64,000 nucleotides of DNA from Bacteroidota bacterium (lineage in GTDB: Bacteria; Bacteroidota; Bacteroidia; 2-12-FULL-35-15): contig JAOQAE010000006.1 of NCBI GenBank assembly GCA_025963725.1, positions 744,001 to 808,000 on the forward strand. The letters run 5' to 3'. This document shows positions 1,637 to 52,997 of this stretch, piece after piece; position 1 is the stretch's first letter; each line of letters starts with the position of its first letter. The notes under the pieces are model-generated. The model was given only the letters and a program-made list of their open reading frames with translations, ran no database searches and was not told where the DNA came from. The translations under genes and the position numbers were made by a program.

Positions 1637-4600
1637 ATGAAAAACTTTACTCCCCGTTCTTCAGCAATTTTAATTTTCCTGGCCTGCTTCGGCTTTCTCT
1701 TTTACAGCAACGATGCATTCGCACAACCCGCCAATAACCTTTGTTCAGGGGCTATTCCGCTTACCGTGAATGGCGCCTGCACATCGGGCACCAATGTGGC
1801 CGCTACCACAACCCCGGCTACCGACGGCGCCATAGGATGCTGGGCAACTGCAGCAAGCAACACGGTTTGGTTCCAGTTCACAACTGCCGCAACACCGCAA
1901 ACGTACGTCATCTCCACCGACAACGGGGGCAGCACCGATACCGAGATGAAGCTCTTTACCAGCGCCTGCACCGGCACACTTGCACCTGCGCCTAACTGCA
2001 ACGAGGATGTAGGCGCTTCGGGAACAAACACACTCGCCGCGGTGATCGTTACATCCGCGCTTGCACCCAGCACCACTTATTATATCGAAATAGATGTTTA
2101 CGGCGGAACTACCGGCACCTTCTGCATTTCTGTAAGCACCCTTCCCGATGTTTGCGCGAATGCGATCACGCTTACCGCGGGGGCAGGGTGCGTGAACGGA
2201 AGCAATACAGGCGCAACCATTGCAGGCGATGGCGCCGGAGTGGGCGCAGCATCCTGCTGGACAGGCGCAAACGCATACAGCAATTCCGTGTTCTATAATT
2301 TCGTTGCCACCAACGACAGTATGACCGTTAGCTTCGGGAACGGCTCACTGCTTGCAAATGCCTACGGGCCTTATGCGGCGATATATTCCGGCTCCTGCGG
2401 AAGCCTCAGCCAGCTTCCTCCAACCTCCTGCGTGCAGGATGGCAACGATATAAATGTAACGGGCCTCACCGTGGGCAATACGTATTATGTAATGGTGGAT
2501 GGAAATGCGCTCAACACAGGATCCTATTGCATCAGCGTAAGCAGCACGCTTCCCGGAAATAATAACCTGGTGCCGCTGATCAACACCTCCGGCTGCGGAT
2601 TGAACTTTACGCAGGCAAGCGCACGCGTTACCAGCCGTTACACCGGACTTGCAGGCACAGGCTTGCCCTGCACGCTCAACATCACCGGGATCCCTGCCAC
2701 CTGCCGCGTGATCCAAAAGGCGTATCTGTTCTATGAAATGTCCTACACTTCAAATGCGCCGGTAACATCTCCCACAGTTTCCGTTACCAATCCGGCAGCT
2801 GCGCTCTTCAATTACAATGCAACGCTCGTGGGGCGGTCGCACCAGAAATGCTGGGGAGAAATGGGAACCGCCTCGTACCGCACCGATGTGACCACCGCCA
2901 TCACAGGGAACGGGAACTATATCATCAACACAGCCCTCACCGCGAATGAAATAGACGGAATGACGCTGCTCATCATTTACCGCGATGTGAATGCAACCTA
3001 CGAAGGCCATCTCCTGATCGATAACGGGATCATCACCATCAACAGCTTTGCCGCTGCAGTTGCCTCACACACCATTACGGGCGTAAATGCGTGTGCGGCA
3101 TCTGCCGGAACCAGCTTCCTCATCGCCGGGGATTTCCAGTTCGCAACACATACCAATACGATCACCGGCGCATCTACCGCGGTGCCTGTAGACAACTTCT
3201 GGAACTTCGACCAGGTAGCAACCAATTACACGCTCGGACAGCCAAGCATCTCCTATAGCACCACCAGCAATTATGTAGTAACTTCGGATTGCTTTTCACT
3301 GGTGGCAACGGGAGCGTATTATCAAACCACCACCTGCACCACCTGCAACCTTCCGCTTACTGTTTCGATCACTCCCACGCAGCCTACCTGCGGGCTGAAC
3401 AACGGCGCTGCAACAGCAAACCCTTCCACAGGGATCTATGCACCTTACACTTACGCATGGAGCCCGGGAGGCATGAGCACGCAAACCGTTACAGGACTTG
3501 CACCGGGAACCTACACCGTTACAGTTACCGATCCTTCCGGATGTAAAACTGCAACACAAACCGTAACGATCAATTCTTCATCTCCTGCAACAGCATCCAT
3601 TTCGCCTGCTTCGGCAAGCATCTGCAATGGCAGCAGCACAACGCTTACGGCATCGGGCGGCGGGCTTTACAGCTGGAGCTCGGGACAAAGCACCGCTGCT
3701 ATTACCGTAAGCCCTGCTGCAACTACTGGCTATACTGTAACTGTTACCGTTGGAACCTGCACCGCAACAGCAGCTGCAACAGTTACCGTTACACAGCCTG
3801 CCGTGGCCACGTTCAGCTACACGGGAACACCGTATTGCCAGAATGCCGCTAACCCCTCGCCCACATTCAGCGGAGGAGGCGTGGCAGGAACGTTCTCTTC
3901 AAGTGCCGGATTGGTGTTCGTAAGCACCGCAACCGGGCAGGTGAATCTTTCCGCAAGCACACCGGGAACATACACCGTTACAAATACAATTCCTGCTTCC
4001 GGCCCATGCCCTGCGGTTACCGCCACATCAACCATCACGATCACACCATTGCCGGTTGCAACCTTCAGCTATACGGGATCGCCGTACTGCAAGAATGCGG
4101 CTAATCCCTCGCCAACATTCAGCGGAGGCGGCGTTGCAGGCACCTTCTCCTCCACAGCAGGCTTAGTTTTTGTAAGCACGGCCACGGGACAGGTTAACCT
4201 TGCAGCAAGCACAGCCGGAACATACACTGTTACAAATACAATTGCTGCATCCGGCGGATGCCCTGCCGTTACCGCAACAGCAACAATCACCATCACGCCG
4301 CTTCCGGTTGCTACATTCAGCTACACAGCTTCACCGTATTGCCAGAGTGCTGCCAATCCTTCACCAACCTTCAGTGGGGGCGGTGTTGCAGGAACGTTCT
4401 CTTCCACTGCTGGATTGGTATTTGTAAGCACTTCAACAGGACAAGTGAATTTATCCGCAAGCACGCCGGGAACATACACTGTTACAAATACGATCGCACC
4501 TTCCGGCGGATGTCCTGCCACCACGGCAACAGCGGCCATCACCATTACGCCGCTGCCGGTTGCCACATTTAGCTACACCGCTTCACCGTATTGCCAGAAC

Positions 4601-7600
4601 GCCGCCAATCCTTCGCCAACATTCAGTGGTGGCGGAACAGCAGGTGTCTTCTCTTCAACGGCAGGACTGGTGTTTGTGAGCACTTCAACAGGACAGGTGA
4701 ATCTTTCGGCAAGCACAGTGGGAACATACACCGTTACAAATATGATCGCAGCATCGGGCGGATGCCCTGCTGTTACTGCAACGGCAACGATCACCATTAC
4801 ACCGTTGCCGGTGGCAGCATTCAGCTATGCCGCCTCGCCGTATTGCCAGAGCGCCGCCAATCCTTCACCGGCATTCAGTGGTGGCGGAACTGCAGGCACC
4901 TTCTCTTCAACGGCAGGATTGGTGTTTGTGAGCACTTCAACAGGACAGGTAAATCTTTCCGCAAGCACGCCCGGAACGTATACGGTTACAAACACAATTG
5001 CTGCTGCCAGCGGATGCCCTGCCGTTACTGCAACAACAACGATCACCATCACGCCGGCGCCCGTGGCAGCGTTCAGCTATACTGCGTCGCCTTATTGTCA
5101 GAACGCTGCCAATCCATCGCCGGCATTCAGCGGCGGCGGATCTGCCGGAACGTTTTCTTCCACCGCAGGGTTAGTGTTTGTAAGCACTTCCACCGGGCAG
5201 GTGAATTTATCCGCAAGCACGCCCGGAACATACACGGTAACAAATACGATCGCAGCATCGGGCGGATGTCCGGCTGCTACCGCAACAGCAAGCATCACAA
5301 TTACGCCGCTGCCTGTCGCCACCTTCAGCTATACCGGATCACCGTATTGCCAGAATGCGGCGAACCCTTCGCCAGCATTCAGCGGAGGCGGTGTTGCAGG
5401 AACTTTCAGCTCCACAGCAGGACTTAGCATCAATGCTTCAACAGGGCTCGTGAATCTGGCCGCCAGCACCCCGGGAACATATACCGTTACCAATACGATC
5501 CCTGCCGCAAGCGGTTGTCCGGCCGTTACTGCAACCGCAACGATCACCATCACGCCATTGCAGAATGCATCCTTCAATTATTCGTCGGGAACATACTGCC
5601 AGACAGGCGCTAACCCAACTCCAACAATCACCGGGGCAGCAGGCGGAACCTTCAGCTCATCGCCCGCAGGCCTTGTGTTTATAAGCACATCAACCGGGCA
5701 GATCAATTTATCCGCCAGCGCATTGAATACCTACACGATCACTTACACTACAGCGGGGCCATGCGCCAACTCGAGCACGGTGAACGTAACGATAAGCAAC
5801 GCGCCGTCGGCCAGCTTCAGCTATACAGGCTCGCCATACTGCCAGAACGGAACAAATCCGTTCCCAACGTTCAGCGGCGGAGGAACCGCAGGAACATTCT
5901 CTTCCACGGCCGGATTGGTGTTTGTAAATACAGGTACCGGCCAGGTTGACCTTGCCGCCAGCACAGCGGGAACATACACTGTTACCAATACCATTGCCGC
6001 TTCGGGCGGATGCGCCGCAGCAAGCGCAACAGCAAGCATCACCATCAATTCAGCACCTGCAGCCACTTTCAGCTATACGGCTTCCCCTTATTGCCAGAAT
6101 GCGGCCAACCCTTCGCCAACATTCAGCGGAGGCGGAACAGCCGGAACATTTTCATCGGCAGCCGGATTAAGCATTAACGCTGCTACAGGTGTGATCAACC
6201 TCGCGGCAAGCACACCCGGAACCTATACGGTTACCAATACAATCGCCGCTTCCGGCGCATGCCCTGCCGTTACCGCAACCGCAAGCATCACCATCACACC
6301 GTTGCCTGTTGCCACATTCACCTACACAGGCTCGCCGTATTGCCAGAACGCCGCGAATCCATCGCCAACTTTCAGCGGCGGCGGAACAGCAGGAACGTTC
6401 ACATCTTCTGCCGGACTTGTGATTAACGCAGCTACAGGTGCTGTGAACCTCGCAGCAAGCACCGCAGGAACATATACTGTTACCAACACGATCGCCGCTT
6501 CCGGCGGATGCCCTGCCGTTACTGCAACAGCGAGCATCACCATTACAACAGTGCCCGTTGCAGCCTTCAGCTATACGGCTTCACCGTATTGCCAGAATGC
6601 GGCGAACCCTTCACCAACATTCAGCGGAGGAGGAACAGCAGGAACATTTTCATCAACTGCCGGATTAGTGTTTGTAAGCACTTCCACCGGGCAGGTAAAC
6701 CTTTCTGCCAGCACACCGGGAACATACACGGTGACCAACACAATTGCTGCATCGGGCGGATGCCCTGCCACCAGCGCAACAGCAAGCATCACCATTACGC
6801 CGCTTCCGGCAGCAACATTCAGCTACGCCGCTTCTCCATATTGCCAAAGCGCTGCTAATCCATCGCCGGCATTCAGCGGGGGCGGCGTTGCTGGCACGTT
6901 CTCTTCCACGGCGGGATTGGTATTTGTAAGCTCAGGTACCGGGCAGGTGAATTTATCGGCAAGTACACCCGGAACCTATACCGTAACGAATACGGTCGCC
7001 GCATCAGGCGGATGCCCTGCCGTTACCGCAACTGCAACGATCACCATTACACCCGTACCTGTTGCAGCATTCAGCTATACGGCCTCTCCTTATTGCCAGG
7101 GTGCTGCCAACCCCTCACCAACATTCAGCGGAGGCGGGGTTGCGGGAACATTCTCTTCAACGGCAGGATTGGTATTTGTAAGCTCCTCAACCGGGCAGGT
7201 CAATTTATCGGCAAGCACACCCGGAACCTACACCGTAACAAATACGATCGCGGCTTCCGGCGGATGCCCCTCAACAGCAGCAACAGCGAGCATTACGATC
7301 AATGCTTCACCAACAGCAGCATTCAGCTATACAGCTTCACCGTATTGTCAGAATGCTGCTAACCCATCGCCAACATTCAGCGGCGGCGGTATTGCCGGAA
7401 CGTTCTCTTCCACGGCAGGACTTGTATTTGTAAGCACATCAACCGGGCAGGTGAATCTCTCTGCGAGCACACCGGGAACATACACGGTTACAAATACACT
7501 TCCCGCATCGGGCGGATGCCCTGCTATTACAGCAACAGCCGGCATCACCATTAATCCCGTTCAGAATGCTGCATTCAGCTACAGCGGATCCACGTTCTGC

Positions 7601-10600
7601 TCCTCGGGAACCAACCCTGTACCTTCCATCACAGGTACGGCAGGCGGGACCTTCAGCGCTTCACCGGCAGGACTGGGGTTTGTAAGCACATCCACAGGTG
7701 AGATCAATTTAGCATCCAGTGCCCTCAACACCTACACCATCACTTACACCACCCCGGGGCCTTGTGCAAGCAGCGCAACCGCAACCATCAGCATTTCCAA
7801 TGCCCCGGTGGCCACTTTCTCTTATTCAGGATCTCCGTATTGCCAGAATGGAACAGATCCATCACCTGCATTCAGCGGAGGAGGAACGGCAGGTACATTT
7901 ACATCTGCCGCCGGACTCAGCATTAACGCAGCTAACGGAACAGTGAACCTTGCCGCAAGCACGCCCGGAACATACACCGTTACCAATACGATCCCTGCAT
8001 CCGGCGGATGCGCTGCCGCAACAGCAACGGCAAGCATTACCATCAACCCGGTACAGAGCGCTGCATTCAGCTATTCATCGCCAACCTTCTGCCAAACCGG
8101 TGCTAACCCAACACCAACGATCACCGGCGCTGCCGGCGGAACATTCAGCTCAGCGCCCGCAGGATTGGTATTTGTAAGCACAGCAAGCGGTGAGATCAAC
8201 CTCGCTGCAAGCGGACTGAACACCTACACCATTACATACACCACTCCGGGCCCCTGCCCAAGCAGCGCCACGGCATCGGTTACCGTAAGCAACCCGACCC
8301 TTGCCACCATTAACTACAATGGCCCGTATTGCCAAGATGCCGCCGATCCATCACCGAACTTTGCGGCAGGGGCGAGCGCCGGGGCATTTACCGCTTCGCC
8401 GGCAGGACTGGTGTTTGTAAGTACATCAACCGGGCAGGTTGACCTTTCCGCCAGCACAGCCGGCACTTATACGGTTACCAATACAATTGCGGCTTCCGGC
8501 GGATGCCCCGCATCCACCGATACTGCCTCAGTCACCATCACCGCGCCCGCCGTTGCAAGCTTCAGCTACGCAGGCTCGCCGTATTGCCAGAGCGCAGCCA
8601 ACCCTTCACCTGCATTCAGCGGAGGCGGCATTGCAGGAACATTCACGCCATCTTCACCATCCCTGGTGTTTGTGAGCCCCTCAACCGGGCAGATCGATCT
8701 TGCAGCAAGCACGCCGGGAACATACACTGTTACCAATACAATTCCCGCATCCGGCGGATGTCCTGCAGTAACCGCTACTGCTAACGTCACCATCACCGCT
8801 CCGCAAACAGCGGGCTTCAGCTACACCGGATCACCATACTGCCAGAATGCGTCCAATCCCTTACCAACCTTCACCGGCAGCTCTGTAGCGGGTACATTCA
8901 GCGCGCCGGCCGGACTGGTATTTACAAGCACTGCCACGGGCGAAGTAAACCTTGCGGCAAGCACAGCCGGCACATACACTGTTACCAATACAATCCCCGC
9001 ATCGGGCGGATGCCCTGCTGTGGCCGCCACATCAACCATCACCATCAATCCTGCGCAGACTGCGGCATTCAGCTACAGCGGCTCCACCTTCTGCGTTTCC
9101 GGAACCAATCCAACACCAACGATCACAGGCACTACAGGAGGGACATTCACTTCTTCGCCTGCCGGGTTATCGTTTGTGAGCACAGCCACAGGCGAGATCA
9201 ACCTTGCGTCCACAGCGCTGAACACGTATACCATCACTTATACCACAGCCGGCCCCTGCGCCGCTGCCAGCTCGGTGTCGGTCACCGTGACCAATGCGCC
9301 TAATGCAACATTCAGCTACGCAGCATCTCCTTATTGCCAGTCGGCAGCCGATCCTGCACCTGTATTTGGCGCAGGAGCAAGCGGTGGTGTATTCAGCTCC
9401 ACGGCAGGCTTAATGATCAATGCAGGCACAGGCATCGTCGATCTTTCGGCAAGCACGCCGGGAACATACACGGTAACCAATACCATTGCTGCTTCGGGCG
9501 GATGTGCTGCCGCAAGCGCAACGGCAAGCATTACGATCAGCCCTTCACAAAATGCAGGATTCAGCTATTCCTCGGCTACGTTCTGCTCTTCGGGCGCCAA
9601 CCCATCGCCAACCATTACGGGCGTTGCGGGAGGCTCCTTCACTTCATCGCCTGCCGGGTTATCGTTTGTGAGCACAGCCACGGGCCAGATCAACCTTGCC
9701 GGAAGCGCACTGAACACCTACACGATCACCTATACCACACCGGGGCCATGCGCCGATTCAAGCGCAGTGAGCATCACCATTACAAATGCCCCTGTGGCTA
9801 CATTCAGCTACACAGGCACTCCGTACTGCGCCGGCGGCACCAATCCGCTGCCAACATTCAGCGGCGGAGGAACGGCAGGAATATTCTCCTCTACAGCCGG
9901 ACTGGTATTTGTGAACACATCAACGGGTGAGGTAGACCTCACGGCAAGCACACCGGGAACTTACACGGTTACCAATACAATTGCGGCATCAGGCGGATGT
10001 GCTGCCGCCACTGCAACTGCGGGCATCACCATCAACCCCTTGCAGAATGCGGCATTCAGCTACAGCGGCTCTACCTTCTGCTCTTCAGGAACCAATCCCG
10101 TAGCAACAATAACCGGCGCTCCGGGAGGAACTTTCAGCGCAGCGCCGGCGGGCCTCGTGTTTGTAAGCACTGCAACAGGCGAGATCAACCTCGCGGGAAG
10201 CGCGCTGAATACCTACACGGTAACCTATACAACACCGGGCCCATGCGCAAACACTTCGACGGCAAGCGTGACCATCACCACTTCACCGGCAGCAACCTTT
10301 AGCTATACGGCTTCACCGTATTGCCAGGGCGGCACCAACCCTTCGCCAACCTATAGCGGCGGAGGCAGCGCAGGCACATTCACCGCAAGCCCTGCAGGGC
10401 TAAGCATCAACGCTTCCAGCGGACTTGTTGACCTTGCAGCAAGCACGCCGGGAACCTACACCGTTACAAATACGATCGCTGCATCCGGCGGTTGTCCGGC
10501 AGCTTCGGCCACAGCCGGCATTACGATAAATGCACCGCAGGCAGCCACCTTCAGCTATACCGCTTCACCGTATTGCCAAAGCGGAACCAATCCTTCGCCA

Positions 10601-11773
10601 ACGTTCAGCGGCGGCGGCGTTGCAGGAACATTTACTGCAAGCCCTTCCGGCTTAAGCATCAATGCTTCCAGCGGACTGGTAAACCTCGCTTCGAGCACGG
10701 CGGGAACATACACTGTTACCAATACGATCGCGGCAACCGGCGGATGCCCTGCAGTTACTGCAATAGCAAGCATCACGATCAATCCTTTGCAAAATGCGGC
10801 ATTCAGTTATTCCGCGGCATCCTTCTGCCAGTCGTCGGCTAATCCAACGCCAACTATCACAGGTGTTGCAGGCGGAACATTCACTGCCTCGCCTTCAGGG
10901 TTGAGCATCAATGCAGGCACGGGAAGCATTGCCCTGAGCAGCAGCACGGTGAACACATATACCATCACCTACACCACGCCGGGCCCATGCGCCAGCTCAA
11001 GCACCGCCACAGTAGCGGTCACCACTGCGCCTGTTGCAGCAGCTACCGCAACGGCATCTGTATGTGCGGGGCAAACAGTCAGTTTTACATCTTCGGGCGG
11101 CGGCACCTACAGCTGGACAGGCCCGGGATTTAGCTCTGCGTCACAAAACCCGGTTATCAGCCCCGCGGATGTTTCCAACAGCGGAACTTACACGGTAACG
11201 GTAAACAGCGGCGGATGCTCTGATACCGCACAGGTAAGTGTTATCGTAAATCCATTGCCGGCAACCAATGCAGGTCCCGATGTAACCATCACACAAGGCG
11301 CAGGAACCAACCTTGCCGCATCGGGAGGCAGCTCCTACACCTGGACGCCGGCTGCAACACTCAGCTGCAGCAATTGTCCGGCCCCGGTGGCTACACCTTC
11401 AGTAACAACTACCTACTGTGTTACAACCAGCAGCGGCGGCTGTTCCGATAATGATTGCGTAACGGTTACAGTGGAGATCCCATGCAACACAAATAAGGAG
11501 CTCGGTGTGCCGAATGCTTTCTCTCCTAACAACGACGGCAACAACGATCTCTTCTGCCTGCAGGGCTGGAGCGCATGCATGAATGAGTTCAGCATCCTTA
11601 TCTACGACCGCTGGGGCGAAAAAGTGTACGAAGGCGGAGAGGCGGATTTCTGCTGGGACGGAACATTCAGGGGCAAAATACTTGATCCCGCCGTGTTCGT
11701 ATACTTCATCAAGGCAACTTACACTACCGGTGAAAAAGTAGTGAAGAAAGGAAACATTTCGATCATCCGTTAA
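1637..11773 (+). CDS. Giant repetitive T9SS type B cargo, SprB-like surface protein
   Basis: This 3378-residue protein is predicted to be secreted and anchored at the cell surface. It opens with a signal peptide ending near residue 29 (AFAQ). Two Cys-containing beta domains resembling pre-peptidase C-terminal modules follow (about 30-170 and 170-300), then a region of about 260 residues I cannot name. Next come one SprB repeat (about 575-645, with the PYTYAW and [13 protein letters not shown] motifs), an Ig-like segment and 29 tandem units (residues 723-3132). Two more Ig-like segments and a T9SS type B (gliding-motility-type) sorting domain end it; the latter shows [14 protein letters not shown] and [11 protein letters not shown]. 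The start is ATG 1637. The next gene encodes a PorP/SprF-family protein, the partner usually found beside type B cargo. By analogy with SprB of Flavobacterium johnsoniae, adhesion or gliding is likely, but this is inferred. Confidence 0.9.
3803..11032 (+). repeat. 29-unit tandem coding repeat array (about 252-bp period, two unit types)
   Basis: Inside the giant surface protein, 29 units follow one another without interruption. I count 22 type A units of about 84 residues, with the [12 protein letters not shown] and [16 protein letters not shown] motifs. Seven type B units of about 81 residues have [13 protein letters not shown] instead. The order is 7A-B-7A-B-A-B-3A-B-A-B-A-B-2A-B. Each unit carries two cysteines, one after the first aromatic residue and one near residue 68, which could form a disulfide. 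Adjacent type A units in the first half look most alike in the DNA, at an exact 252-bp spacing. This suggests recent amplification or gene conversion. Confidence 0.95.
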
Positions 11774-11809: not shown

Positions 11810-12886
11810 ATGAAAAAAGCACTTTTACTCCCGGCCTTGCTGATTTCCGGATCCGCGCTGTACGCACAGGATCTGCATTTCTCCCAGTACCAACAAACGC
11901 CTTCCCTGCTGAACCCGGCTCTTACCGGCGCATCCACGGTAGTCCGCGCATCGGTGATCTACAAGGACCAATGGAGAAGCGTTACCGTTCCCTACAAAAC
12001 GTATGGCGCTTCCTTTGAAATGAAATTCAAGGCAAGCAACTGGGAAAAGGCGGATAAGTTCAAAACCAAAACGTATAAAAAATCATTCAGCAGGATGGCC
12101 GGCGGACTTTCATTTTACCGCGATCGCGCCGGAGACGGGAACATGGGCTCCACGCAGGCCAACCTCACGCTCGCCACCTTTGTGCCTGTAACCACGTACA
12201 GCTCGCTGTCACTTGGATTGCAGGCGAGCGTTGTGCAGCAAAGCGTGGACGTTTCAAAGCTAATCTTCCCGAACCAGTACGGAGCAACAGGATACGACCC
12301 TAACATCACTTCCGGTGAAAGCTACAATGCGCAGAATTTTATCTATCCTGATTTTGCAGGCGGCATTAACTGGAGCTACGGATACAATGCACGCTCCATC
12401 GGCGCTAACAATGAAAAGCGCGCTAACATAGGCATTGCAGCCTATCACCTCAACTCGCCGAAACAATTGTATCTCGACGGATCCTTCGAACGCCTGAGCC
12501 CGAAATACATCTTTCATACAGACATGCTCTTCGGGCTACGGAACACCAACGTTGCGCTGGTCCCGAGCTTCATGATGGAATTACAGGGGGCTTCCATGGA
12601 AATGATCGAAGGGTTCATGGTGAAATATTATTTTAAGGAAGATTCAAAATACACAGGCATCATCAAGCGCTCCGGGCTTGGATTCGGTATTGCATACAGG
12701 AACACGGATGCTGTTATCTTTTCGCTGCTGCTGGAGTATGAGAACTATGCCGTGGGCGTAAGCTACGACCTCAACACTTCCAGGCTGGCCGGTGCAACCA
12801 CGGGCCGCGGCGGGCCGGAGATCTTCGTACGCTTCGTAACGCCAAACCCTTTCCTCTACCAGAAATCGAGAGCGAGGTTTAATTAA
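11810..12886 (+). CDS. PorP/SprF family type IX secretion outer-membrane protein
   Basis: The 358-residue protein has a signal peptide (cleavage after ALYAQ, about residue 20) followed directly by DLHFSQYQQTPSLLNPALTG. That start is typical of the PorP/SprF family, which has the form HFSQY-(x)n-NPAxTG. The remainder is rich in beta strands (many alternating aromatic and glycine residues), fitting an outer-membrane beta-barrel. SprF is needed for secretion of the adhesin SprB, and PorP/SprF genes usually sit beside genes for type B sorting-domain cargo. Here the giant repeat protein ends only 36 bases upstream, so the two are probably co-transcribed and this protein probably handles that cargo. 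Which named subgroup it belongs to cannot be told from sequence alone. Confidence 0.9.
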   Translation: MKKALLLPALLISGSALYAQDLHFSQYQQTPSLLNPALTGASTVVRASVIYKDQWRSVTVPYKTYGASFEMKFKASNWEKADKFKTKTYKKSFSRMAGGLSFYRDRAGDGNMGSTQANLTLATFVPVTTYSSLSLGLQASVVQQSVDVSKLIFPNQYGATGYDPNITSGESYNAQNFIYPDFAGGINWSYGYNARSIGANNEKRANIGIAAYHLNSPKQLYLDGSFERLSPKYIFHTDMLFGLRNTNVALVPSFMMELQGASMEMIEGFMVKYYFKEDSKYTGIIKRSGLGFGIAYRNTDAVIFSLLLEYENYAVGVSYDLNTSRLAGATTGRGGPEIFVRFVTPNPFLYQKSRARFN

Positions 12887-19672: not shown

Positions 19673-20093
19673 ATTCACACCCCACCCACGTTCTCGACTG
19701 CGCTCGAACTGACACCGCGCATAACACGTCACGCATCCCGAACCTGCAAGGGATTTACCCAGCCTCTGCGTTCCCCGCGCCTCCGCGAGAAACAACTTTG
19801 CGTTCCTTGCGTCTTTGCGAGAAATCAATCGTCGAAGACGATAAAAATCTGCGAATCTGCGGCTACCTTCACCCTACCCACGTTCTCGACTGCGCTCGAA
19901 CTGACACCGCGCATAATACGTCACGCATCACGAGCCTGCGAGGCACCTCCTCTGCGTTCCCTGCGTCTCCGCGAGAAACAACTTTGCGCTCCTTGCGCCT
20001 TTGCGAGAAATCAATCGTCGAAGACGATAAAAATCTGCGAATCTGCGGCTAGCTTCACCCTGCCCAAATTCTCGACTGCGCTCGAACTGACAA
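19673..20093. repeat. Intergenic tandem repeat, two full units and one partial (about 190 bp)
   Basis: The gap 19614-20248 has no supportable gene but holds a direct repeat: unit 1 at 19673-19864, unit 2 at 19865-20050, and a partial third at 20051-20093. The marker TTCTCGACTGCGCTCGAACT occurs at 19691, 19883 and 20069 (192 and 186 bp apart). Each full unit contains a perfect small hairpin ATCGTC-GAA-GACGAT (19828-19842 and 20014-20028) and short TTGCG/CTGCG-rich stretches. Open frames through it on both strands lack plausible starts and are composition artefacts. It resembles dispersed intergenic repeats of other Bacteroidetes. Confidence 0.85.
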
Positions 20094-49436: not shown

Positions 49437-52400
49437 CTATTGCTGCGTTAAAAGTGTAACATGCCCGGTGAAATCGTGGTAGCGCTGCTCAAAGTCACGC
49501 ACGGTGATCTTATAAACATACACGCCTGATTCAGCCGTTCTGCTGCCATTGTTCGCTTTACCATCCCAGCCGGTCTGTATGTCTTCCGTCTGGTAGATCA
49601 TTTCTCCCCACCTGTCGAAGATCATCATTTTAAACTCGGAGATCTCTGAGCCTTTGGCTGTGAAATAATCGTTGGTGCTATTTCCGTCGGGCGTGAATGC
49701 ATTCGGAATATATATAGTGAACACAGGGCGCACCTCGATCTTACGAACGATGGTATCCATACAGCCCGCGATGCTGGAGGTATACAGCTTCACTTCGTAT
49801 TCGCCTTTATCCGCGTAAGTATGCTGCGGATCAGCGAGCGTTGATGTGCCGCCATCACCGAATTCCCATGCGTAGGAAACAGCATTCTGTGATTGATTAT
49901 AGAACTTATAGATCGGGCTGATGGTTGTTCCATCTATTCCTTCCGAGCTGAAATCCGCGATCGATCCCTGGTTCACCGTAATGTTGCAGGTGGTGGATGC
50001 AGTGTTCACACATCCGAAAGGAGATGTTACCGTGAGCGATACATTGTACAGGCCGGTGCTTCCATAAGTGTGTACCGGATGCTCGAGCGCCGATGCATAT
50101 CCATCGCCAAAATTCCAGTTGAACTGTGACGCGCTGTTCGCTCCTGAATTTTCAGCGAATGCAGCGTTGACTTCATTACATGCAACAAGTGTTTGCGGCG
50201 AAAGGTCTACCGTTGGAAGCGGGTTAACGGTTACCGGAACAGAGCCTGTAACGCTGTTTCCGCAGGCATCGGTAACTGTAACCGTATAGGTTGTTGTGGC
50301 AGGAGGTGAAACAGTGAACGGGCCGTTTCCTGTACCCAATCCGGCACTCCAGTTAACTGTTACCGGGCCGGTGCTTCCGCTCACCACAGAAGAAATCGTT
50401 GCGCTGCTTCCATAGCAGATCGCGGAAGCGCCACTTACCGTTAAGTTTGCCGCTGTTAATGATGTAACGTTTACCGACACTGTTGACACAGGGCTGATGC
50501 AACCGTTCGCATCCATCGCGGTAACGCTGTACGTAGAAGGCGATACAGGACTTACCGTTTGGCTTGCACCCGATCCAATGCCGCTCCAGTTATAGGTATA
50601 TGCACCGGTACCGCCCGAAGCTGCTGCAGTGATGCCGGTATTTTGTCCGAGGCAAATAGTTGTGGAGCCCGATGCGTTTACCGTTAAAGGCGCAGGCTGC
50701 GTAACTGCAAGGCTCGAAGCCAGCATACATCCGTTGCCATCGGTTACGGTGATCGAATATGTTCCCGGGCATAATCCGGTGGCACTCGCGCTGGTTCCGC
50801 CTGTAGGCATCCACTGGTACGAATAGCCGGGGGTTCCGCCCGAAGGGATCACCACCGTTTGTCCGTTGCAGGCGCCGTTACAGGTTACGGGATATGCGGC
50901 AGATGCGATTGCTAATGCCGGCGGCTCTGTAATAGTAATGTATGAATTGGCAATGCAGTTATTCGCATCGCTTACGGTCACGAAATAATTTCCGGGAGCA
51001 AGTCCGCTTACGGATTGCGTGTATTGTGCGGGGCTTGTGCTCCACATGTAGCTGTATGTCCCTGTACCGCCTGATGCGCCTACGGTTGCATAGCCATCCG
51101 CAAGGCCGTTACAGGTCACGTTGCTTACCACCATACCGTTTGCGGTAAGCGCAGGAGGCTCTGCAATTGTTATGTTCGCGGTGGTGCTGCAGCCATTGGC
51201 ATCGGTGATGAGCGCCGAATAATTACCGGCTGCAAGGTTGGTGGCTGTGGCTGTAGTCTGCACCGGGCTTGTATTCCAGCTGTAGGCATAAGCTCCGGTT
51301 CCGCCCGAAGGTGTTACTGTTGCAGAGCCGTTGCTGCTGCCGGAGCAGGTAACATTGGTTTGAGATGAGGTATAGCCCACAGGAGCAACAGGCTGTGAAA
51401 TGACCACAGCGCCGTTGGTGGTGCAGCCGTTCGCAGTGGTGACTGTTACACTGTATGTTCCAGGTGCGAGTCCGCTTATGGCCGACGTGGTGGCGCCATT
51501 CGACCACAGGAACGTATAGGGTGGCTGTCCGCCGCTCACATTCGCAGTTGCAGCGCCATTCGCAGCGCCATAGCAGGAAACGCCGGTGGAGTTGATCACG
51601 AGGTTAGCGGGTGTTGCACCATTTGAAACCACAGCAGTGGCAGAGCTTGTACAGCCTCCGCTGCCTGTTACATTCACGGTGTAGGTCCCGGCAGAAAGCC
51701 CGTTCTGGTCATAATTAGTGCCGCCACCGATCCATTGATACGCGTACGGCCCTGTTCCGGCAAGCACCTGCACTTCGGCAGTACCGTTGGAAGCGCCGCA
51801 ATTGGCAGGGGTTGTGGAGGTAGTGAGCGTTAAGCCCGATACGGTGATGCAGAAGGAGAATGTCTGGCTGCCGTTATACGGGCAGTTATCATCCTGCACT
51901 GTTACGGTAAAGCAATGAGAAGCAGTGCTGATGTCGGCAGCAGTTGGTGTCCAGCTGAATGTGCCTGTAGGGCGAAATCCTGCAGAAGCGCTGAATGAAG
52001 CGCCTGAAATTCCGCTGTTCCAGTTGATGGAAACATTCTGAGCAGAGTCTATATCATAGGTTGAGATCACAAAGTTAAGGGGCACGCCGGCGCAGGCCGT
52101 GAGTGAATAAGTCCCGGTATTATTGATCCCGTTCACATACGGGTTGTTATTGGTGCAGCTCATGGTGCGCAGCTGGATGTCGCGCATTACGCTGCCTACG
52201 AGCACTTCGCTTCTCCATTCCTGCACAAGCACTGCAAACACGGTTACTTCGATCATGGTTGGCGACATGCACATATCGCCGGAAGCACTATTGAATGTTA
52301 CTGCAGGGGATGATACAAGCGGCTGTGAAGCCGAGTATGGCGGGTTATACGTTACGGTGGTTGTTGCGCTTGTCCTTGGCGCGATGAGCGTATAGGACAG

Positions 52401-52997
52401 GGAATCGCCGTCGATATCGGACGAGCCGTTATTGAAGCAATAGGGTTGTCCCACGCAAACAAAGGGGATCGGGGGATTAGAGAATGTAGGTGAGCTGTTG
52501 CATGGAAAATCCAGGTTGTTCAGCAATGCTTCCACATAAATGTTTTCCGCAGAGGGATTCACAATTGTGTTGATGGACGCATTCCTGCAGCAGAGGCTGA
52601 AGCTGAATGTCCAGTCGGTGCAGGCCATCGGCAAGGTAATGACGCCGCTGTATTTATATTCCTGCACTCCGGGATATGCTCCGCCCGAACATTGTGTGTT
52701 CATGGAGGCACAGATAGGTGAAACTTCTATCCCGGTGCCCGGTAGCTGGTTTAATGTAAGTGTTAAATTTTGTCCGCACGATGCGGAAGAAATATTTATC
52801 GTGGCTGTAGTTGGAGCTGCTACTCCCGCGCAGTCGCGGTAAAAGGAGAGAGAGATCTTGTATTGGTTTCCGCCGAGGCACTGGTAGGTAATATCAGCGC
52901 TTTGGGCGTGTGATGCAAATGCTTCATTCTGTGACTGAATGAACATTACAATGAAACTGATCCAAAAGAAAACCCTGTGAGTAAGTTGTGTATTCAT
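49437..52997 (-). CDS. T9SS type B cargo with SprB and PKD repeats
   Basis: The 1186-residue protein has a signal peptide (to about residue 28) and an N-terminal region to about 390 with many cysteines. Five SprB repeats follow (about 395-705; each with a Cys-NG-A motif, a Y-x-Y-x-W pair and GLAPGTYSVTVTxANGC), then two Ig-like segments (700-880) and two PKD domains with FNWNFGDG and YAWEFGDGG (about 890-1080). A type B gliding-motility-type sorting domain ends the chain (IPNAFTPDGNSTNDYF, FDRWGEMIYQTED). It should be exported by T9SS. Nothing identifies its ligand. The gene lies 175 bases downstream of the phosphatase cluster. Confidence 0.9.
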   Translation of the reverse strand: MNTQLTHRVFFWISFIVMFIQSQNEAFASHAQSADITYQCLGGNQYKISLSFYRDCAGVAAPTTATINISSASCGQNLTLTLNQLPGTGIEVSPICASMNTQCSGGAYPGVQEYKYSGVITLPMACTDWTFSFSLCCRNASINTIVNPSAENIYVEALLNNLDFPCNSSPTFSNPPIPFVCVGQPYCFNNGSSDIDGDSLSYTLIAPRTSATTTVTYNPPYSASQPLVSSPAVTFNSASGDMCMSPTMIEVTVFAVLVQEWRSEVLVGSVMRDIQLRTMSCTNNNPYVNGINNTGTYSLTACAGVPLNFVISTYDIDSAQNVSINWNSGISGASFSASAGFRPTGTFSWTPTAADISTASHCFTVTVQDDNCPYNGSQTFSFCITVSGLTLTTSTTPANCGASNGTAEVQVLAGTGPYAYQWIGGGTNYDQNGLSAGTYTVNVTGSGGCTSSATAVVSNGATPANLVINSTGVSCYGAANGAATANVSGGQPPYTFLWSNGATTSAISGLAPGTYSVTVTTANGCTTNGAVVISQPVAPVGYTSSQTNVTCSGSSNGSATVTPSGGTGAYAYSWNTSPVQTTATATNLAAGNYSALITDANGCSTTANITIAEPPALTANGMVVSNVTCNGLADGYATVGASGGTGTYSYMWSTSPAQYTQSVSGLAPGNYFVTVSDANNCIANSYITITEPPALAIASAAYPVTCNGACNGQTVVIPSGGTPGYSYQWMPTGGTSASATGLCPGTYSITVTDGNGCMLASSLAVTQPAPLTVNASGSTTICLGQNTGITAAASGGTGAYTYNWSGIGSGASQTVSPVSPSTYSVTAMDANGCISPVSTVSVNVTSLTAANLTVSGASAICYGSSATISSVVSGSTGPVTVNWSAGLGTGNGPFTVSPPATTTYTVTVTDACGNSVTGSVPVTVNPLPTVDLSPQTLVACNEVNAAFAENSGANSASQFNWNFGDGYASALEHPVHTYGSTGLYNVSLTVTSPFGCVNTASTTCNITVNQGSIADFSSEGIDGTTISPIYKFYNQSQNAVSYAWEFGDGGTSTLADPQHTYADKGEYEVKLYTSSIAGCMDTIVRKIEVRPVFTIYIPNAFTPDGNSTNDYFTAKGSEISEFKMMIFDRWGEMIYQTEDIQTGWDGKANNGSRTAESGVYVYKITVRDFEQRYHDFTGHVTLLTQQ

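Follow-up and report, generated by a model that had tools for sequence, protein, structure and literature searches.

The window (the whole 64,000-nucleotide stretch of contig JAOQAE010000006.1 of the Bacteroidota assembly GCA_025963725.1) contains a gene for a large predicted surface protein in which 29 consecutive immunoglobulin (Ig)-like units of two types, A and B, stand in a defined order. This array is probably the stalk of an adhesin-like, surface-anchored protein secreted by the type IX system, a long stalk built of disulfide-bearing Ig-like A and B domains that read A*(B A' A*)n, where A' is the A-type unit following B and B carries its own linker. From the N to the C terminus the protein consists of N-terminal domains, the Ig-like stalk of 29 units, more Ig-like sequence and a sorting domain of type IX type B. 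The long stalks of adhesins are commonly regarded as uniform repeats; in this case, an order rule holds in 39 related Bacteroidota arrays. This makes it testable whether neighbours in a tandem stalk constrain each other, or whether recombination alone preserves their order.

A sequence-only reading of the window had described the unit order 7A-B-7A-B-A-B-3A-B-A-B-A-B-2A-B and a glutamine (Q) before each B unit, and both were confirmed. The order is exact, with 22 A and 7 B units, and Q was found at all seven A-B junctions as well as at the two A-A junctions (before units 21 and 28) where it had been noted. Four positions before the phenylalanine of the FSY motif, each of the 7 B units has Q, against 2 of the 22 A units (Fisher p = 2.3e-5). 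The linker with NAP, NPT or TTxP that had been ascribed to B units was also present, although on 7 of 7 units by the reading's own list and not on six, as it had counted. Mean identity within the array was 74% between A units, 69% between B units and 46% between A and B units. Compared with A, the B sequence is three residues shorter in the loop that leads into the last strand, and NTYTITYT replaces GTYTVTNT. The 29 units contain 58 cysteines, and in the full unit set described below exactly two cysteines were present in 563 of the 588 A units and 188 of the 202 B units; with this pattern, each domain is likely to contain a disulfide. Neither chance nor assembly produced the array, because it lies in one open frame, DNA identity has a ceiling of 84% (the unit pairs of lowest synonymous divergence reach no more than this) and the independently assembled locus L012 agrees with it. 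For the array of the window taken by itself, the lack of B-B junctions was not significant (expected 1.45, p = 0.16); it became so only once relatives were added.

Relatives were collected by scanning an A-B-A segment against bacterial genomes, which resulted in 71 loci; the window's own genome contains several paralogous arrays. The frames of loci L011 to L088 were cut into units with profiles made from the window units, with the linker excluded. Before counting, units below 50 bits ('o'), units with a class margin below 15 bits ('x') and incomplete units were excluded, and duplicates were removed. The 684 contiguous junctions between complete, deduplicated units comprised 299 A-A, 126 A-B, 187 B-A and no B-B junctions; the other 72 involved an ambiguous or low-scoring unit. 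In a tree of 850 distinct units, one clade (support 0.856) held 202 of 202 B units and 0 of 588 A units. The A/B labels changed once on this tree, versus 179.6 times in shuffles; the two are not wholly independent, as the profiles behind the labels came from the sequences in the tree. By their sequences, A and B form separate and ancient groups. This separation had been proposed from the window, and the mixed tree that would speak against it was not seen. Many of the relatives are strict BABABA arrays or lone BA modules amid other domains, and locus L072, from a cultured Hymenobacter rubidus isolate, has ABAB arrays. A further unit type ('o', ISYPGSPFCASGTGSVTQTGQGGGSYSS...) is found at L017, L078, L145, L146 and other loci and, unlike B, adjoins itself. 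The arrays at L059 and L062 are of Bacteroidota type although the record titles read Rhizobium sp. and Cycloclasticus sp., and these contigs were probably wrongly binned.

Judged from the relatives, the rule that A follows B is firmer than the Q mark before B. The unit behind 195 distinct B units was A in 188 cases, another domain in 5 and an ambiguous unit in 2. No B-B junction occurred within 39 arrays, where 48.9 were expected by shuffling and zero was reached in 0 of 3000 shuffles; in the 16 arrays that also hold A-A junctions, 10.0 were expected and again no shuffle of 3000 was at zero. A search with a B-only profile matched 32 of the genus's 36 genomes. It added 21 B units, all of which (21 of 21) had A next and were preceded by D (18) or Q (3). 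Across the phylum, 17 of 395 sampled genomes matched in the B-only search. A units are less restricted: another domain stands before A in 42 cases, and in 116 no A/B unit lies right behind (array and locus ends included). The B-then-A rule is strong near the window and looser far off.

The A units that follow B largely form a third clade, A'. It contained 176 of the 218 post-B units and 6 of the 318 post-A units. The post-B and post-A labels changed 26 times, versus 168.5 times in full shuffles and 65.9 times in within-locus shuffles (minimum 58 of 200). Units 9, 19, 23 and 25 of the window fall in the A' clade, and no post-A unit of the window does. Signature columns were determined from 26 loci with both contexts, which together had 66 post-B and 164 post-A units. 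Among the columns of the post-B signature were 25, 38, 45, 69 and 71, for each of which 0 of 300 within-locus permutations reached the observed value, and the signature was linked more strongly to the class of the previous unit (V up to 0.53) than to the class of the next (up to 0.35). Together with this stronger link to the previous class, the grouping of post-B units into A' identifies B-A', with B first, as the inherited block, and arrays read A*(B A' A*)n. It had been suggested that A-B pairs were duplicated together; an inherited pair does exist, but the A' clade and the lone B-A modules indicate that the pair is B-A'. Plain A units can be added on the C-terminal side of such pairs and before the first pair, and the order may have been kept partly since the C-terminal side of B needs an A-type neighbour.

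That a Q-type junction predicts a following B unit also proved to apply in other arrays, in the more general form of D, E or Q. Of the 126 A-B junctions, 115 have one of these residues before B. Of the 299 A-A junctions, 26 have one before the second A, in every case Q. In the relatives the mark is mostly D, versus Q in the window. The opposite outcome, B following P-ended units as often, was not seen, as P precedes B in 1 of the 126 junctions. After an A unit, D or E is a near-perfect mark of a coming B, and Q a weaker one. The mark is also present on 63 distinct B units that follow a domain other than A or B (D in 53 and Q in 6; 59 of 63), which rules out that it is a property of the preceding A unit. 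Because it is kept after unrelated domains, the mark is the N-terminal linker of B, carried along into any context. The appearance of a 'junction rule' depends on where the unit boundary is placed.

Several points weigh against this description of the arrays. An A-B-A query favours arrays of that kind, which is answered in part by the B-only searches, and the low-scoring ('o') and ambiguous ('x') units were kept out of the counts. Ten distinct B-like units outside the genus were followed by A in 5 cases, another domain in 3, an ambiguous unit in 2 and B in none. Within the window, the terminal B (unit 29) has no A after it, and 2 of the 6 post-B units (units 17 and 27) lie outside the A' clade. 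Furthermore, conservation of the order rests on one syntenic orthologue.

In this orthologue, L012, the PorP/SprF protein is 66%, the product of the next, reverse-strand gene 71% and that of the third gene 87% identical to those of the window. Eighteen units could be aligned from the C-terminal end, with the same class as in the window in 18 of 18 and a mean identity of 78.3%; the N-terminal part of L012 is cut off by the contig end. The array end (10799-11038), with its B unit without a following A, is an exception that is kept in L012. Twelve regions from relatives beside matching neighbour genes contained no A/B units, which left L012 as the only syntenic orthologue with the array.

Within the window array, fourfold sites differ at 0.567 on average between units, and at 0.701 when codons are shuffled. 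With such a high difference at fourfold sites, the units are old and their synonymous sites near saturation. Protein identity nevertheless reaches 94%, for example between units 6 and 12, versus 63% of fourfold sites that are different. Active codon diversification between units was ruled out, the synonymous difference being below the shuffled value. The A7-B pattern repeated at the start of the array had been read as the duplication of an eight-unit block, but lag 8 was no closer than lags 1 to 11 at either the protein or the synonymous level. In the first 16 units, A units eight apart were 83.1% identical on average, those one apart 84.9% and those nine apart 85.8%; the fourfold-site difference was 0.570 at lag 8, 0.578 at lag 7 and 0.557 at lag 9. 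Moreover, units 8 and 16 are not mutual nearest neighbours, the closest unit to unit 8 being unit 18 and to unit 16 unit 26. We therefore regard a block duplication as very improbable. The interpretation given with the sequence-only reading is, as a whole, partly supported.

The order could be a neutral relic of the history of the array. Unequal crossing-over between like units makes no new type of junction, and linkers travel with their units; as it only adds or removes units, a founding array without B-B stays so, and history alone could preserve the grammar. Recombination between A and B should indeed be rare at an identity of only about 46%, adjacent A units are slightly closer at synonymous sites (0.516 versus 0.567 overall), and the A' units largely group together, as would be expected of plain descent. 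However, B is rarely parted from the A that follows it, though A itself adjoins many other domains (the 42 and 116 cases above), and plain A multiplies freely but B never does. Deletion and domain shuffling should also sometimes put B before another domain, which was seen in 5 of 195. On balance, pure history falls a little short of an even prospect. A structural cause appears more doubtful than that: the C-terminal face of B and the loops at the N-terminal end of A' would form a specific interface, B-A' would be a cooperative two-domain module, and selection would act against B-B. This is the packing idea of the sequence-only reading, shifted to the other side of B. In its favour, the signature columns fall into three loop regions of the A domain (25, 38-45 and 69-71), all of which might point towards the domain before it in an Ig-like fold, and they are more strongly associated with the class of the previous unit than with that of the next. 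But descent from one B-A' ancestor gives the same signature, and units 17 and 27 are plain A units after B. A more far-reaching reading, in which Bacteroidota surface stalks follow the three-type grammar with obligate cooperative folding or stiffening of B-A', a D/Q entry linker, counterselection of B-B and a stalk constrained to be free of lysine (Lys) and arginine (Arg), is rather unlikely in our judgement.

The array might also bind ligands itself, its units binding at different positions as in the titin A-band, and not be a spacer. The unit order is kept in L012, as in titin, where position is described as tied to binding (PMC10665226). In the syntenic relative G016, however, a wholly different repeat is in its place, and the array has nearly no charged residues (1 basic and 18 acidic in 2410), which makes ligand binding along its length quite improbable. 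The G016 locus (L180, G016:C12:1-6450) encodes a PorP/SprF protein 81% and a neighbour gene product 76% identical to those of the window. The last 226 amino acids of its surface protein are 64% identical, and the stalk is a different array of repeats of about 80 amino acids without A/B units. With the stalk swapped and the C-terminal secretion end kept, the stalk type is exchangeable, and a spacer role is probable. PorP/SprF-family matches at G015:C480, G007:C80, G016:C5, G012:C343 and G023:C40 have one in-frame stop, and are decaying copies or contain sequencing errors.

The A/B units are predicted to be Ig-like. The structure alignment input contained 59 of the 101 listed A-B-A(-A) locus segments plus 2 window segments. 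The model of units 7-10 (A-B-A-A) was of very high confidence, had a predicted local distance difference test (pLDDT) score of 96.7 and a predicted template modelling (pTM) score of 0.75, and was almost all-beta. Its structural matches were the grappling hook protein GhpA (9flx; Z 9.9, root mean square deviation (rmsd) 9.8 over 297 residues), invasin (Z 9.8, rmsd 9.3 over 301) and LigA (Z 9.0, rmsd 4.5 over 148). These matches are tied, and at the level of the model they reflect the common arrangement of tandem Ig-like surface proteins, not membership of a family. The best rows in Foldseek were cadherins (E 1.5e-11, template modelling score 0.2-0.3), which we read only as a sign of tandem beta-sandwiches.

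The stalk is almost devoid of basic residues. The window array has 1 Lys and no Arg, histidine or tryptophan in its 2410 residues, and 18 acidic residues; all 790 A and B units together have 129 Lys and 25 Arg (154 together) in 60,067 residues, and the unrelated G016 stalk has 1 Lys/Arg in 1500 residues. This near-absence was seen in the window (3809-11038), L012, L072, L058 and L180. The Lys plus Arg content of other genes in the window was 9-18% in 10 of the 11 tested, and 2% in the eleventh, another type IX protein. The array contains 127 asparagine codons and 157 AGC/AGT codons, which are one step from Lys/Arg codons, but 1 AAG and no AAA, AGA or AGG. With neighbouring codons abundant and Lys/Arg codons nearly lacking, this suggests selection against basic residues in the stalk, for which protease resistance or a transport constraint is a possible reason. 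If such a constraint exists, a Lys/Arg-free stalk would offer trypsin-like proteases no cleavage sites. No published precedent for Lys/Arg-free stalks was found in the open-licence literature, to which the search was confined and which makes this a weak negative.

The features of the gene are given in Table 1. A Pfam search with the N-terminal region gave no families at cut-off, while parts of this region have relatives in 21 of the 36 genomes of the genus; a single-sequence structure model of residues 299-539 failed (pLDDT 29.8). The A/B units as such gave no Pfam match at cut-off, units 7-8 alone peaking at 15.7 bits (cut-off 27). With the whole protein, SpaA, PKD_4 and Monooxygenase_B exceed the cut-off as sums only and in no single stretch, and NCBIfam matched the C-terminal sorting domain (CTD) only. 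As they reach no curated cut-off, the A/B units are largely invisible to annotation.

Table 1 Coordinates of the surface protein gene, its parts and the downstream gene in the window
Feature	Position	Strand	Remarks
Whole gene	1637..11773	+	Predicted surface protein of 3378 aa, single open frame; CTD by PF13585 and TIGR04131
Probable Sec signal peptide, 30 residues	1637..1726	+	By eye from the translation
N-terminal region: two related domains that look beta-rich, a third domain, Ig/SprB-like sequence	1727..3808	+	Possible binding end
Array, 29 units of 80-85 aa	3809-11038	+	
A units 1-7	3809..5569	+	
B unit 8	5570..5812	+	Preceded by linker PLQNA
A units 9-15	5813..7570	+	Unit 9 in post-B (A') clade
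B unit 16	7571..7813	+	
A unit 17	7814..8062	+	Post-B, yet outside A' clade
B unit 18	8063..8305	+	
A units 19-21	8306..9064	+	Unit 19 is A'
B unit 22	9065..9307	+	
A' unit 23	9308..9556	+	
B unit 24	9557..9799	+	
A' unit 25	9800..10051	+	
B unit 26	10052..10294	+	
A units 27-28	10295..10798	+	Unit 27 post-B, yet outside A' clade
B unit 29, last of array	10799..11038	+	Different Ig-like domain next, likewise in orthologue L012
Post-array Ig-like sequence	11039..11503	+	Best phmmer stretch against GhpA is residues 3107-3237
Type IX type B C-terminal sorting domain	11504..11770	+	CHU_C PF13585, 60 bits (cut-off 27); TIGR04131, 48.9 bits (cut-off 35)
PorP/SprF-family gene	11810..12886	+	PF11751 and TIGR03519 above cut-off (TIGR03519 173.4 bits, cut-off 90.55)

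Elsewhere in the window, a second type IX type B protein is encoded on the reverse strand (49437-52997), with five SprB repeats and PKD domains and 2% Lys plus Arg. At 19678-20092 a 186-bp direct repeat is present in 2.2 copies. This repeat, whole or in part, matches 56 places in the same genome, for the most part with only 25-60 bases, and represents an interspersed repeat family.

The gene is predicted to encode a type IX-secreted type B surface protein, and the product of the PorP/SprF-family gene is presumed to be its cognate shuttle or anchor. The protein would be exported by the type IX system and held at the cell surface by its PorP/SprF neighbour, and its N-terminal region would be held out by a stiff stalk whose Ig-like domains bear disulfides. 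The arrangement of a type B substrate with a cognate PorP/SprF shuttle has been shown to work in F. johnsoniae (PMC12618676). As described for SprB and Fjoh_3952 of Flavobacterium johnsoniae (PMC12618676, PMC12635249), the window encodes a large surface protein with a type B CTD and a PorP/SprF gene directly downstream; unlike in these two proteins, the stalk is made of A/B units. SprB repeats (PF13573) were absent among the matches of the whole protein and the parts tested. Gliding SprF is described as needing a Cys-X-Cys C-tail for its link to GldK and the gliding track (PMC12635249). Unlike SprF, the window PorP/SprF protein contains 0 cysteines and has no Cys-X-Cys C-tail, so that this mark of a gliding adhesin is missing. 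Because of the lack of cysteine, anchoring seems likelier than gliding.

GhpA of Aureispira (PDB 9flp, 9flx and related entries) is an Ig-like multidomain surface protein of Bacteroidota. The window protein is related to it in sequence (phmmer E 8.5e-31, 14 stretches), mainly in the post-array domains, and GhpA fragments are among the best structural matches. The best phmmer stretch covers the post-array domains and not the A/B units. In the SasG stalk the alternating domains are G5 and E. Its two alternating domain types on a bacterial surface resemble those described here, but SasG is Gram-positive and has other folds (PMC4458895). The modules of Acinetobacter BAP are likewise Ig-like, 80-110 aa long, of several named types and part of a surface protein, whereas their sequences are different and the module make-up is described as varying between strains (PMC4647330). 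The giant Mobiluncus mulieris adhesin shares tandem cross-linked Ig-like domains, disulfides included; it has other cross-links too, and the available part of the report mentions no two-type order (PMC10619420). Periscope proteins are described as rod-like single chains of highly identical tandem repeat domains (PMC9704523). Measured against this, the window units reach up to 94% protein identity and differ at 0.567 of fourfold sites. In periscope proteins, the repeat number varies between strains.

A published precedent for the A*(B A' A*)n grammar was not found in the open-licence literature, the only literature searched, so that this negative is weak. The nearest parallel in its working is the titin A-band, in which related domain types also stand in a fixed order with pair-specific linkers; there, the order is attributed to block duplication, and where a domain sits in the super-repeat is connected with binding sites (PMC10665226). 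Titin is, however, an unrelated protein of the sarcomere, with FnIII and Ig domains in super-repeats of fixed length, whereas the blocks described here differ in how many extra A units they contain.

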